NCBI GenBank assembly: GCA_016218415.1
Contig: JACRED010000024.1
Span: forward strand, 1-64,000
DNA length: 64,000 nucleotides
From: Nitrosomonadales bacterium
GTDB lineage: Bacteria; Pseudomonadota; Gammaproteobacteria; Burkholderiales; Gallionellaceae
Direction of reading: 5' to 3'
Shown here: positions 57,773 through 63,599 of the stretch, piece by piece
How positions within the stretch are numbered: position 1 is the stretch's first letter
How the letters are laid out: each line of letters opens with the position of its first letter
The notes under the pieces: generated by a model
Seen by the model: only the letters and a program-made list of their open reading frames with translations
What the model was told of the DNA's origin: nothing
The model's database searches: none
Program-made: the position numbers and the translations under genes

Positions 57773-58264
57773 ATGTATCCAGTCCACGATGTTGATGCAA
57801 TCCTGTTGCTGGCCATGTCGCTTGCATCCAAGCGCCGCCCGGCAGCGCTGGTCGAGATCATCGCAGCGGCCGATCTGGCGCAGGGCGCCATTCCGCCCGA
57901 AACCAAATTGTCCGATTCCTTCTATCGGCTCTCGGAATACGGCCTGATCGGCGCGCAGGATGGCGGCTACACGCTGACCCCGGATGCGCAGCTGATATTG
58001 TCCGGCCATGCGAAGAAAGCCAAAACCCCGGAACGCATCTACGACATCAAGGAAAGCCTCGCCGACTTCCACCTGAACGGTGAACACGCGATCGTCATGG
58101 TGACGGTGGAACAGATCGCCGCAGCCATTGCTGAACATCAGGCCACCAAAAGAATCGCGGTCAAGAATCTGCTGGCGCCCAAACCAAAACCTGCAGAGGA
58201 CCAGCGTCCGGGACAGCGCAAGCAATACAAGTCTTTTGCGACTCGCAGGCGCAAGGAAGGATAA
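57773..58264 (+). CDS. Conserved-looking hypothetical, winged-helix-like, partner of dbpA
   Basis: This 163-residue soluble protein's first ~75 residues suggest a small winged-helix (helical VDAILLLAMSLASKRRPAAL, then LSDSFYRLSEYGLIGAQDGG, YTLTPDAQLIL). The C-terminus is a basic Lys/Arg/Gln-rich tail (KPKPAEDQRPGQRKQYKSFA), the kind often seen on RNA-associated proteins. Its stop is 3 bp before the dbpA start, so it is very likely cotranscribed and may act with the helicase in ribosome assembly. I do not recognise a named family. Confidence 0.72.
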   Translation: MYPVHDVDAILLLAMSLASKRRPAALVEIIAAADLAQGAIPPETKLSDSFYRLSEYGLIGAQDGGYTLTPDAQLILSGHAKKAKTPERIYDIKESLADFHLNGEHAIVMVTVEQIAAAIAEHQATKRIAVKNLLAPKPKPAEDQRPGQRKQYKSFATRRRKEG

Positions 58265-58267
58265 CGC

Positions 58268-59677
58268 ATGACCGATAAAACCTCCCCTGCATCCGTCACC
58301 ACCGGCCGCTCCTTCAATGAACTGCCGCTGTCGCCCGGCATCAAGGAGACCCTGCAGCAGCTCGGCTACCTGACGATGACGCCGATACAGGCGGCCAGCC
58401 TGCCGATCGCATTGGCGGGGCATGACCTGATCGCGCAGGCCAAGACCGGCAGCGGCAAGACCGCGGCGTTCGGGCTGCCGCTGCTCACCAATCTGAACCC
58501 GCGCCGTTTTGCGGTACAGGCGATGGTGCTGTGCCCGACGCGCGAGCTGGCCGACCAGGTCACGCAGGAGATCCGCCGCCTGGCGCGCTCCGCTGACAAC
58601 ATCAAGATCCTGACGCTGTGCGGCGGCAGCATCATGCGCACACAGACCTCCAGCTTGGAACACGGCGCGCACATCGTCGTCGGCACACCGGGGCGCATCA
58701 TGGATCACATGGAGCGCGGCACGCTGAACCTCGATGCGCTGAACACGCTGGTGCTCGACGAGGCGGATCGCATGCTGGACATGGGCTTTGTCGAAGACAT
58801 CGCGTTTATCGCAAAACGTTGCCCGGCGCAGCGCCAGACACTGCTGTTCTCGGCGACCTACCCGGACGGCATCGCGAAACTGGCGCGCCAGTTCATGCGC
58901 GAGCCGCAGCAGGTGAAGCTGACCGAGCAGCATGAGGAAAGCAAGATACGCCAGCGTTTCTACGAGGTAAGCAACGAGGGCAGGTTGCAGGCCGTGGGTA
59001 CGCTGCTGAAGCATTACCGCCCGGTCAGCACGCTGGCCTTTTGCAACACCAAGCAGCAATGCCGCTCGCTGCTGGAAGCTTTACATGCGCAGGGCATCAA
59101 GGCGCTGACCCTGAATGGCGATCTGGAACAGCGCGAGCGCGACCAGGTGCTCATTCAATTCGCCAACCGCAGCATCTCGGTGCTGGTGGCGACCGATGTC
59201 GCGGCGCGCGGGCTGGACATCGCGCAGCTCGAAGCGGTGATCAATGTCGATATCACGCCCGACCCCGAGGTACACATCCACCGCATCGGCCGCACCGGCC
59301 GCGCCGGCGAAAACGGCTGGGCGCTCAGCCTGTGCAGCCCATCTGACCAGCGCCGCGTGATGACCATCGCGCAAATGATGGGCATCAAACCGGAGTGGCA
59401 TGAACTGACCGAGATACACAGCGAAGACGAAGCGAAGCTGGTGCCGCCCATGGTGACGCTACAGATACTCGGCGGGCGCAAGGAGAAGATCCGCCCCGGC
59501 GACGTGCTGGGCGCGCTCACCGGCGAAGCGGGATACACGCGTGAACAGATCGGCAAGATCACCATCACCGACCAGTCCACCTATGTAGCCGTCGCGCGCA
59601 ACATCGCGCACGACGCGGTGCGCAAATTGGCGGCAGGCAGGGTCAAGGGCAAGACGGTGAAGGTGCGCGCGCTGTAG
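58268..59677 (+). CDS. dbpA: ATP-dependent RNA helicase DbpA
   Basis: This 469-residue DEAD-box helicase has the Q motif FNELPLSPGIKETLQQLGYL, motif I AKTGSGKT, motif II LDEADRMLDMG, motif III FSATYP and motif VI HRIGRTGRAGE. The C-terminal ~75 residues (VTLQILGGRKEKIRPGDVLG to the end) form the DbpA-type RNA-recognition domain that binds 23S rRNA hairpin 92. It acts in 50S assembly. It is preceded by an unknown winged-helix-like gene at a 3-bp spacing. Confidence 0.93.
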   Translation: MTDKTSPASVTTGRSFNELPLSPGIKETLQQLGYLTMTPIQAASLPIALAGHDLIAQAKTGSGKTAAFGLPLLTNLNPRRFAVQAMVLCPTRELADQVTQEIRRLARSADNIKILTLCGGSIMRTQTSSLEHGAHIVVGTPGRIMDHMERGTLNLDALNTLVLDEADRMLDMGFVEDIAFIAKRCPAQRQTLLFSATYPDGIAKLARQFMREPQQVKLTEQHEESKIRQRFYEVSNEGRLQAVGTLLKHYRPVSTLAFCNTKQQCRSLLEALHAQGIKALTLNGDLEQRERDQVLIQFANRSISVLVATDVAARGLDIAQLEAVINVDITPDPEVHIHRIGRTGRAGENGWALSLCSPSDQRRVMTIAQMMGIKPEWHELTEIHSEDEAKLVPPMVTLQILGGRKEKIRPGDVLGALTGEAGYTREQIGKITITDQSTYVAVARNIAHDAVRKLAAGRVKGKTVKVRAL

Positions 59678-59806: not shown

Positions 59807-60115
59807 TTGGAAAATCTATACAACATCCTTGGCGTTGCGCCGACCGCGACGACCGAGGAGATCAAGAAAGCGTATCGCTTGCTTGCGATGCGCCACCATC
59901 CGGACAGGAGCGCGCATCCCGGAGCCGAGACCCGGTTCAATGCGATCAAGACGGCCTATGAGTTGCTTTCCGACCCCAAAAAACGGGCCGAATATAACCA
60001 GAGCCTGAACAATCGCATCATCCTCGATCCCGATAACGAGGCGCGCGCTTTGTGGCATTTGCTGTTCGACCGTTGCGGCGTTGTTGTGCCGCACGATGGC
60101 CATACACCACATTAA
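59807..60115 (+). CDS. Small J-domain (DnaJ-like) protein
   Basis: This 102-residue protein consists of a J domain (residues ~1-68: [40 protein letters not shown] with the HPD motif, then [15 protein letters not shown]) plus a ~35-residue tail. It lacks the Gly/Phe, zinc and C-terminal substrate domains, so it is a class III J protein that would recruit DnaK to a specific client. The start is TTG at 59807 with GGAG upstream. Three genes of unknown function follow in the same direction, the first 25 bp away, suggesting a dedicated chaperone for those products. Confidence 0.87.
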
Positions 60116-60140
60116 CCACGAAACCCCATGAATAAAACCA

Positions 60141-60674
60141 ATGAATAAAAACATCCATCACGAATTTGCCTATCAGTCGCGCGAACTGGGCATACAGATC
60201 GAAGATACTTTGGGCGATCCGCCAGACCGGAAGAATTACGCAAACGTCATCAAGTCGCTGATCGGCGAATACGCCAAAGGCACGGAGATCGACGATGTCA
60301 ATCTGCTGAGCTTTGCGCTGGCCGATTACCTGAGCTTCGACGATCCGGCCGGGCTGCTGGCACAGTGCAAGCAGTATGAAGGCGGGGATGCCGCGAAAGT
60401 GGTCACGATGGTGTCGTGTGCGGATGCCGAGGCCGCCAAAGCGCTCGCCGGCATTTCCGCCAAAAATCCCGACCTGGCGCGCAAGGCGATCATCACCGCA
60501 TTCCTGTTCAAGAACACCAAGCGCTGGTCCGATGAAGACAATTCGCTCGACGCGCTGCAGGAAGAAGAGGACAGCAACCAGAATAGGGATGATGGCGAGG
60601 ACGACGGGCGGGGCGTGCCCAGCCAGGATGTGATCGATCTATTCGATGTACGCGAGGACAAGAATGGCGAATAA
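60141..60674 (+). CDS. Unknown protein A of the J-domain operon
   Basis: This 177-residue soluble, mostly helical protein has an ordered N-terminal ~125 residues (NYANVIKSLIGEYAKGTEID, then LLSFALADYLSFDD). A strongly acidic tail (ALQEEEDSNQNRDDGEDDGR) ends in a short amphipathic motif, VIDLFDVRED. No signal or TM helix is present. I recognise no family. It follows the J-domain gene by 25 bp and overlaps the next gene by 11 bp, implying coupled expression. Confidence 0.72.
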   Translation: MNKNIHHEFAYQSRELGIQIEDTLGDPPDRKNYANVIKSLIGEYAKGTEIDDVNLLSFALADYLSFDDPAGLLAQCKQYEGGDAAKVVTMVSCADAEAAKALAGISAKNPDLARKAIITAFLFKNTKRWSDEDNSLDALQEEEDSNQNRDDGEDDGRGVPSQDVIDLFDVREDKNGE

Positions 60675-61452
60675 CACTCATTTTCCCGCGATCAGCCGGC
60701 AGGTGACCGAGCTGGTTCTGGCCGGATCGACCGCACATGCCGAGGAAGCGATCAATGAGACGGCGGAACAATTCGGCGATCTGGCCGTGGTGGCGGTGCT
60801 GGATACGCTGGAGCCGCAGGTGGCAGCGATGCATCTGTCCGCTTTTGACGGCGGCAAGTTATCTCTGGCGACGATGCTGATCTCGCCCAAGGCATGGGCC
60901 GAGAGTCTGGCCTTTTTCGCCGCCACCTGGAGCGAGGACAAGCTCGAGGATGAGCCGGAGGTGTTGACCGAATCCCTGTTCGCGCATATCCATGGCGTCA
61001 TCTTCTCCACCGACGATGCGGAGCGGCGCGCAGCGCTGATTCATGAGGCATTGGCGACCGACTGGGGGACGACGGCTTTTGCCGTGCTGTTCTCGACCGC
61101 CACCGGCGAGATCATCGAACTTGCCCAGGATATCCATACGCGCGGTGCGCACAGCAGCGGCCAGACGACTTCAGATCACGATGTGATCCCGCTCGCGCTG
61201 GAGATCGCGCGCAGCGATGCGGATGCCTGGGATCGGGTGTTGTTCGAGATGTTCCCCGACTGGGTGCCCGGCGAGAACCAATTGCGGGCACGCTCCGAAG
61301 AGGGCGATGACGACGAGTACCATCACGAGTTTGCGCTCGCCCGGACTACCCATGACCTGATGTTGCGCCTGCGCAAGCAAGTGCCGGTCAAGTCTTCCCG
61401 CGCGCCAAAACAGGGTGCCCGCCCCAGCCTGGGCGAGGATATTTTTGCGTGA
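60664..61452 (+). CDS. Unknown protein B of the J-domain operon
   Basis: This 262-residue soluble helical protein starts MANNTHFPAISRQVTELVLA. It contains acidic segments (SEDKLEDEPEVL, SEEGDDDEYHHEF) and a basic C-terminus (KSSRAPKQGARPSLGEDIFA). The ATG at 60664 overlaps the end of gene A; the track start at 60646 is less likely. No enzymatic motif stands out. The operon position between two other unknowns after a J protein suggests a multi-subunit assembly. Confidence 0.72.
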   Translation: MANNTHFPAISRQVTELVLAGSTAHAEEAINETAEQFGDLAVVAVLDTLEPQVAAMHLSAFDGGKLSLATMLISPKAWAESLAFFAATWSEDKLEDEPEVLTESLFAHIHGVIFSTDDAERRAALIHEALATDWGTTAFAVLFSTATGEIIELAQDIHTRGAHSSGQTTSDHDVIPLALEIARSDADAWDRVLFEMFPDWVPGENQLRARSEEGDDDEYHHEFALARTTHDLMLRLRKQVPVKSSRAPKQGARPSLGEDIFA

Positions 61453-61493
61453 TGCACAATCGCCACCGGCAGCACGTTACCGAACATTCAACC

Positions 61494-62366
61494 ATGCAAC
61501 TCACCCACATCACCACGCGCGCCCCCCATCTGGTGCAAGCGCTCGAAGCACTGGCACAACGCGCAGACAATCAGGAAGCGGCACAGACCCTGCTCGATGA
61601 TCTGATCGGCATCAACGTGCTCGTCGCCAGAAAATTCACCAATGAACGGACTGCGGATGGACTGCTCGAGGCGTTTCACCTGACGGTGGGATGCATCTCG
61701 CTGGGCATCAGCCAGGCGAATATTCCGCAAGACGGCGATGCGCAGCTTGCTTTTCTACTACACCACGGCGCCGAATACGTTTTCCAGATGGGATTCAGGC
61801 ATATCAAGGAATTATCCGGCCTGCCCTATACGGCGTTCGTTTCGGATTTCGACAACGACCCTTACATACAGCAACGCGACATCAGGTTACTATTCGCCGA
61901 GATATGCCGTGCCGATCCGGTCGCGGCCTGGAAAGGCGATGACGTCTACAAACGTGAATTGCGTGACCGGCAGCACAACCGGCATATCGTGGCGTGCGCA
62001 AAATGGCTGCGCCAGAAACATTACGCGGGACCTGTCAAGGACCCCGATCTCGACGCCAATGCGGTGATCGCGATCGCGGTCATTTTCGCGATCGCCGGCG
62101 ACGGGCCCATAGTCGCGCGGGCCAGGCAAAAAGATATCGAAACCCTGATCCATGGTGTCAGGGCAACACCACTGGATATCGAGGCAGGCTGGAACGCATT
62201 GCTGAAAAAGGCCCCGCCCCAATATCACCCCATCCTGCGTGAACGCATGGACGAATACAGAAACACCATCATCAAGAAAATCCTGTCGAAAACCGGTATC
62301 AAAACCGTCATCACCGAGTTGCAGAATTCTTACGCCGGCAGCGAGCTGGAGGTCGACTATGACTGA
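61494..62366 (+). CDS. Unknown protein C of the J-domain operon
   Basis: This ~290-residue soluble protein is rich in helices: MQLTHITTRAPHLVQALEAL, then LLDDLIGINVLVARKFTNER, AVIAIAVIFAIAGDGPIVAR and ILSKTGIKTVITELQNSYAG. The start is either ATG 61494 or ATG 61449/61452, which overlaps gene B; I chose 61494 because the upstream 15 residues are basic and low in structure. No family is recognised. nnrS begins 57 bp downstream in the same direction. Confidence 0.7.
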   Translation: MQLTHITTRAPHLVQALEALAQRADNQEAAQTLLDDLIGINVLVARKFTNERTADGLLEAFHLTVGCISLGISQANIPQDGDAQLAFLLHHGAEYVFQMGFRHIKELSGLPYTAFVSDFDNDPYIQQRDIRLLFAEICRADPVAAWKGDDVYKRELRDRQHNRHIVACAKWLRQKHYAGPVKDPDLDANAVIAIAVIFAIAGDGPIVARARQKDIETLIHGVRATPLDIEAGWNALLKKAPPQYHPILRERMDEYRNTIIKKILSKTGIKTVITELQNSYAGSELEVDYD

Positions 62367-62423: not shown

Positions 62424-63599
62424 ATGAGCGGACTTAGCTCTCCCGCCCTGTTCAATCTCGGCTTCCGCCCGTTCTTTCTGGTGGCGAGTGTATTTGCGTT
62501 CATCGCGATATTCATCTGGGGTGGTGTTTATGTCTATGGCTGGCCGGTGCCGCGCTTGCCGTTCTCGCCCGTGCACTGGCATGCGCATGAAATGATCTTC
62601 GGTTATGGCATCGCCGTTGCCGCAGGCTTTCTGTTGACTGCGGTGCGCAACTGGACCCACATCCAGACACCCAGGGGATACCCGCTTGCGTGTCTGGCGA
62701 CACTGTGGCTGGCGGCGCGGTTGGCCGGCTGGGCGATCCCGGAGTCGGTGCTGCCGATGATGCTGCTGGATATGACCTTCGACCTCTGGCTCATCGTTGC
62801 GCTCTTCATCCCTATCCTGCGGGCAAAACAACATGACCAGATAGGCATCGCATCCAAACTGCTACTGCTGATGCTGGCCAACCTGTGCTTTTATCTCGGC
62901 GCGTCGGGCGTGCTGGAGCAAGGTATCGTGTGGGGCCTGCATTCAGGGTTGTATGTTCTGCTCGCACTGGTCTTCACCATGGTGAGGCGCGTATTGCCGA
63001 TGTTCATCGAGCGCGGTGTCGGTCATCCCGTGATATTAAAGAATCGGAGATGGATAGATCGTTCCAGCCTCTATATGTTTGTTCTGTTCCTGATCGCCGA
63101 CGTGTTCTGGCGGAATGTATCGGTCACCGCCGCACTCGCCGGCTCGCTGTTCGCGATACACACGATGCGGCTGGCGGGGTGGTACACCGGGGGTCTCTGG
63201 AAAAAGCCGCTGCTGTGGGTGTTATACGCAGGCTACGGCGGCGCCACATTCGGGTTCCTGCTCAAGGCGCTCGCACCGTTCACACCCTTGCCGCCTTCGC
63301 TGGCGTTGCATGCGTTTGCAGTGGGCGGCATCGGCATGATCACAGCTGGAATGATGGCGCGCATCTCGCTCGGGCACACCGGTCGCGACATCCAGCAGCA
63401 TTCGCGCTTGCTAGCCCCGATCTTCATGTCGCTGGTCGCGGCCTACATTGCCCGTGTGCTGTTGCCGATGATCGCTCCAGCGCATTACACGTTATGGCTG
63501 GGTATCGCACAGGCGGCATGGCTGATCGCCTTTGCATTGCTCGTCTGGGTGTACGCCCCTATCCTGGTCAAACCGCGGGTAGACGGAAAACCGGGTTAG
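62424..63599 (+). CDS. nnrS: NnrS family heme/copper membrane protein
   Basis: This 391-residue protein has about twelve TM helices and NnrS signatures: FNLGFRPFFLVASVFAFIAI, PVHWHAHEMIFGYGIAVAAG, FLLTAVRNWTH and MARISLGHTGR. His residues in HWHAHE and LGHTGR are candidate metal or heme ligands. NnrS is associated with denitrification regulons and relieves nitric oxide stress. No nor/nir genes are in the window. The ATG at 62424 (MSGLSSPALFNLGF) fits the family. It could be cotranscribed with the J-domain operon. Confidence 0.92.
   Translation: MSGLSSPALFNLGFRPFFLVASVFAFIAIFIWGGVYVYGWPVPRLPFSPVHWHAHEMIFGYGIAVAAGFLLTAVRNWTHIQTPRGYPLACLATLWLAARLAGWAIPESVLPMMLLDMTFDLWLIVALFIPILRAKQHDQIGIASKLLLLMLANLCFYLGASGVLEQGIVWGLHSGLYVLLALVFTMVRRVLPMFIERGVGHPVILKNRRWIDRSSLYMFVLFLIADVFWRNVSVTAALAGSLFAIHTMRLAGWYTGGLWKKPLLWVLYAGYGGATFGFLLKALAPFTPLPPSLALHAFAVGGIGMITAGMMARISLGHTGRDIQQHSRLLAPIFMSLVAAYIARVLLPMIAPAHYTLWLGIAQAAWLIAFALLVWVYAPILVKPRVDGKPG

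Follow-up and report, generated by a model that had tools for sequence, protein, structure and literature searches.

A predicted atcJABC operon of a divergent betaproteobacterial type in a Gallionella-like genome

The window analysed here (64,000 nucleotides of contig JACRED010000024.1 from a Nitrosomonadales bacterium, assembly GCA_016218415.1) contains a block of four genes that, judging from sequence comparisons, almost certainly represents an atcJABC operon from a divergent betaproteobacterial branch, carried by a Gallionella-like genome. Taken jointly with a chain of action leading from DnaK through AtcJ and AtcC to AtcB, this identity is still likely, and a role of the operon in cold growth in the lineage of the window, based on homology, is somewhat favoured. 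The gene block, the HPD motif, the C-terminal tail of J and the homology of J, B and C were established in this analysis, together with a weaker link for A. In Shewanella oneidensis, atcJABC is a cold-growth operon whose product AtcJ acts together with DnaK, AtcC and AtcB (Maillot 2019, PMC6715715). J, B and C are required at 7°C in this organism, whereas A is dispensable; AtcJ stimulates DnaK, its binding to AtcC requires the 21-aa tail (7 nM for the whole protein), and AtcC in turn binds AtcB (PMC6715715). A contact of AtcB with RNA polymerase was described in a later meeting report (PMC7871303). The sizes reported for S. oneidensis are 94 aa for J, 540 bp for atcA, 759 bp for atcB and 34 kDa for AtcC.

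The features of the region are listed in Table 1. All four genes are located on one strand, in the order known from atcJABC, and are tightly spaced, with a gap of 25 bp between J and A, an overlap of 11 bp between A and B and a gap of 41 bp between B and C. The first-pass annotation had described a J protein with an intact HPD motif and, after it, three proteins (177, 262 and about 290 residues) at distances of 25 bp, -11 bp and about 40 bp. The open reading frames, sizes and spacing were confirmed, and the acidic segments it had recognised are present in A (around residues 140-155) and B (around residues 211-219); the nnrS gene that it had placed after C is real. The J protein was matched by the Pfam DnaJ family (E = 6e-25), and the ATG start of atcC is backed by relatives. 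For nnrS, the start lies at either 62424 or 62406. Rfam and promoter scans gave no match, and terminator-like sites occurred at a frequency expected by chance. A gene for a dbpA-type RNA helicase (58268-59677) is situated directly upstream of atcJ and is itself preceded by an open reading frame of 163 aa (57773-58261) with no clear Pfam family. Such a helicase gene was found upstream of the atc block in 8 distinct loci, close ones only.

Table 1. Positions of the predicted atc genes, the AtcJ tail and the neighbouring nnrS gene in the window
Feature	Position	Strand	Description
atcJ	59807..60115	+	Short J-domain protein of class C (102 aa) with a TTG start; HPD motif at residues 31-33
atcA	60141..60674	+	177 aa, acidic C-terminus; putative, based on position, size, acidic tail and homology via the intermediate clade
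atcB	60664..61452	+	262 aa, all-helical model, acidic loop
atcC	61494..62366	+	290 aa, modelled as all-helical; predicted to receive the AtcJ tail
Predicted AtcC-binding tail of AtcJ	60008..60067	+	Residues 68-87 (N68-F87), P75-X7-W83
nnrS	62424..63599	+	NO-related membrane protein (Pfam NnrS, E = 2e-100); neighbour outside the atc system

A search of genome contigs with C yielded 21 loci, mostly from Gallionella-type MAGs. Conservation of the four-gene block, which had been suggested as a check in the first-pass annotation, was observed at each of the 20 related loci from the first round whose flanking sequence was long enough (protein identity 56-92%), and the loci fetched later contained the full J-A-B-C block as well. 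The linkage of the four genes is far above chance. The relatives bearing the block belong to the Gallionellaceae and to the family holding genome G422, with C being present in 29 of 80 genomes of the former, which is the family of the window, and in 80 of 246 genomes of the latter, where five genera are nearly always positive. At one rearranged locus (L090:5041-7541), A-B-C are encoded on the plus strand and J is convergent on the minus strand just after C, so that J still adjoins the other genes where the gene order is broken. Genome G723 contains two complete J-A-B-C copies (L088 and L089). In a class sample of 369 genomes, the AtcC search matched the genome of the window only, a result we attribute to the small number of genomes per order in this sample; a plasmid search gave no match.

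No relative of the window NnrS was found at 43 other atc loci, a set that is partly redundant and includes a few loci with little downstream flank. The adjacency of nnrS appears to be accidental, and a functional link was rejected on synteny. The block had initially been read as a possible dedicated DnaK-assisted assembly or stress system beside a nitric-oxide-related membrane protein; its DnaK part is upheld by the homology to atcJABC, while the NO link is contradicted by synteny. An NO- or respiration-linked assembly system that includes nnrS would agree with the position of this gene on the same strand after C (57 bp downstream if the start is 62424), yet it is highly improbable, given that the other atc loci have no nnrS relative alongside and that the published description of the homologous system does not include nnrS.

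The window J protein was aligned over residues 1-84 with the NCBIfam equivalog model of AtcJ (NF050028, a model for a cold-adaptation J protein whose name is printed 'ActJ') at a score of 65.3 bits, which does not reach the cut-off of 150 bits. The alignment extends to model position 90 of 93. In other genomes, among the matches listed, the model covered little beyond the J domain, and across the class it mostly matched ordinary J domains. Profile-profile comparison of window-type J with AtcJ gave 99.6%, with the tail included and aligned without gaps. When the tail of the window protein (residues 68-87) was compared with the Shewanella-type tail FNNVIVTDPAAAMRELWDQFY, a score of 36.7 was obtained, which was reached by none of 5000 shuffles (mean -9.4, maximum 25.8). 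The P-X7-W motif seen in the window is also found in all 12 gamma, all 5 intermediate and 34 of 50 beta J proteins, compared with none of 19 control J proteins; in 16 of the 50 beta AtcJ tails, its proline is replaced by A, S or T. The tryptophan is present in the AtcJ sequences inspected and the proline in most of them, and the tail is common to the Gallionella-type, Shewanella-type and intermediate clades. By these comparisons, the tail of the window J protein is judged to be homologous to the 21-aa AtcC-binding extension of S. oneidensis AtcJ.

In Pfam, NCBIfam, PHROGs and PADLOC, A, B and C gave no match that passed a family cut-off. A defence system was rejected on the PADLOC result, and a phage origin was dismissed with no convincing PHROGs match for the three proteins. 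Because A, B and C lack a matching curated model and J falls below the AtcJ cut-off, A, B and C could not be placed at first reading. The initial view of these three as proteins of unknown family is correct as far as curated libraries are concerned, but the literature already contained a description of the system as atcJABC.

Genomes were assigned to the Shewanella-type (gamma) group if their NF050028 score exceeded the curated cut-off, which applied to 19 of 159 genomes from the order of genome G139. All 13 loci drawn from these 19 genomes contain the J-A-B-C block, with sizes of about 94 aa for J, 160-190 aa for A, 252 aa for B and 297 aa for C. A profile of window-type AtcC picked the fourth gene of all 13 Shewanella-type operons (E = 2e-6 to 0.05), direct profile-profile comparison of the two AtcC types gave an E-value of 1.8e-5, and none of 400 column permutations was as good as the observed score. 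By this direct profile match, window C is identified as an AtcC homologue. The corresponding direct comparisons with the Shewanella type were insignificant for AtcB (23 of 400 permutations reached the score) and for AtcA, since these proteins appear to be too diverged; their direct alignments were nearly collinear. Mismatched pairs, which served as controls for the profile-profile comparisons, scored near chance.

Additional comparisons were made with a third, intermediate clade of JABC operons (L122-L126), which encode a longer AtcC (407-444 aa). Intermediate AtcB matched both the beta (E = 1.3e-9) and the gamma proteins (E = 2.6e-4); for intermediate AtcA, the E-values were 7e-9 with the gamma type and 2.6e-3 with the beta type. 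When the beta proteins were compared with the intermediate and gamma proteins combined, the values were 99.8% for J and E = 1.9e-11 for C, 1.2e-6 for B and 2.9e-4 for A (probability 40%). Remote homology, another check named at the outset, thus places C directly and points firmly to AtcB homology for B through the intermediate clade; for A, it weakly suggests AtcA homology, solely via this clade, making this assignment the least secure of the four. The insignificant direct comparisons of A and B with the Shewanella type would fit a scenario in which J and C alone are true atc homologues, A and B being proteins of other descent that were recruited to the same positions. This scenario is improbable, as the intermediate operons connect B firmly, and A less so, with the beta as well as the gamma type, the alignments are collinear, and the sizes, the acidic segments and the A/B overlap are in agreement.

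The structures of B and C predicted with AlphaFold (mean pLDDT 70 and 64, respectively) are both all-helical. They gave no significant match to folds in the PDB, with a model confidence too low for further reading. Sequence searches against solved structures likewise gave no significant match, whether window B and C or the profiles of Shewanella-type B and C were used as queries.

If the S. oneidensis mechanism is carried over to the lineage of the window, AtcJ would stimulate DnaK through the HPD motif of its J domain and hold AtcC by means of its C-terminal tail. AtcC would then hold AtcB, which would hand DnaK to a target, possibly RNA polymerase, as in the meeting report. The outcome would be a focusing of DnaK action on one cellular target that is limiting at low temperature, with AtcA serving as an accessory protein. 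Full-length DnaK was identified in 8/8 related atc-bearing genomes checked. It was not found in the assembly that contains the window (86% complete), and its presence in all eight relatives makes an assembly gap the most likely reason. In addition to DnaK, genomes G723, G715, G687 and G738 encode a second DnaK-like HSP70 that scores 737-764 bits with the DnaK model and stays under the cut-off of this model; such a protein is missing from some atc-bearing genomes.

The same operon family may, owing to diverged partners and targets, serve a condition other than cold in the lineage of the window, such as general delivery of DnaK to a transcription or assembly target. This would be consistent with the strong divergence of A and B, the patchy presence of the block (29/80 genomes in the family), its duplication in G723, the longer AtcC of the intermediate clade, and the expression of the S. 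oneidensis operon at all temperatures, whose authors allow for other roles. We consider this possible but not the probable case, since the J domain and the interaction tail are retained and cold growth is the sole phenotype that we found reported for any atc member. It is rather unlikely that the beta branch constitutes a functionally distinct DnaK-targeting system, with AtcA and AtcB adapted to a different target or stress in the Gallionellaceae and their relatives; if so, 'cold adaptation' would describe just a single branch within a broader family of operons for J-protein-guided DnaK delivery. With the atcJABC assignment, four linked genes that are unnamed in current libraries would be explained, and three divergent branches of one operon become available for comparison. 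The J domain, the tail tryptophan, the AtcC core and the first half of AtcB are kept across all three branches and may reflect what the mechanism needs. The curated model NF050028 covers the Shewanella-type branch only.

The window shares with S. oneidensis atcJABC the order of the four genes, similar sizes and the A/B overlap, as well as a short J protein whose tail binds AtcC (as predicted for the window), an acidic AtcA tail, and A, B and C proteins without known domains. It differs from the Shewanella type in that AtcC is only about 20-23% identical, AtcA and AtcB are without a direct sequence match, AtcJ scores below the curated cut-off and the host belongs to a different bacterial order. 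The P-X7-W tail was reportedly recognised by Weber et al. in 2023 as the mark of a subfamily of short J proteins from beta- and gammaproteobacteria that are encoded with atcA, atcB and atcC homologues, and the window J protein fits that subfamily. The HscB-IscU-HscA (Isc) system similarly has a dedicated class C J protein encoded beside its client; however, A, B and C of the window are unlike Isc proteins, and HscB models match the J protein weakly.
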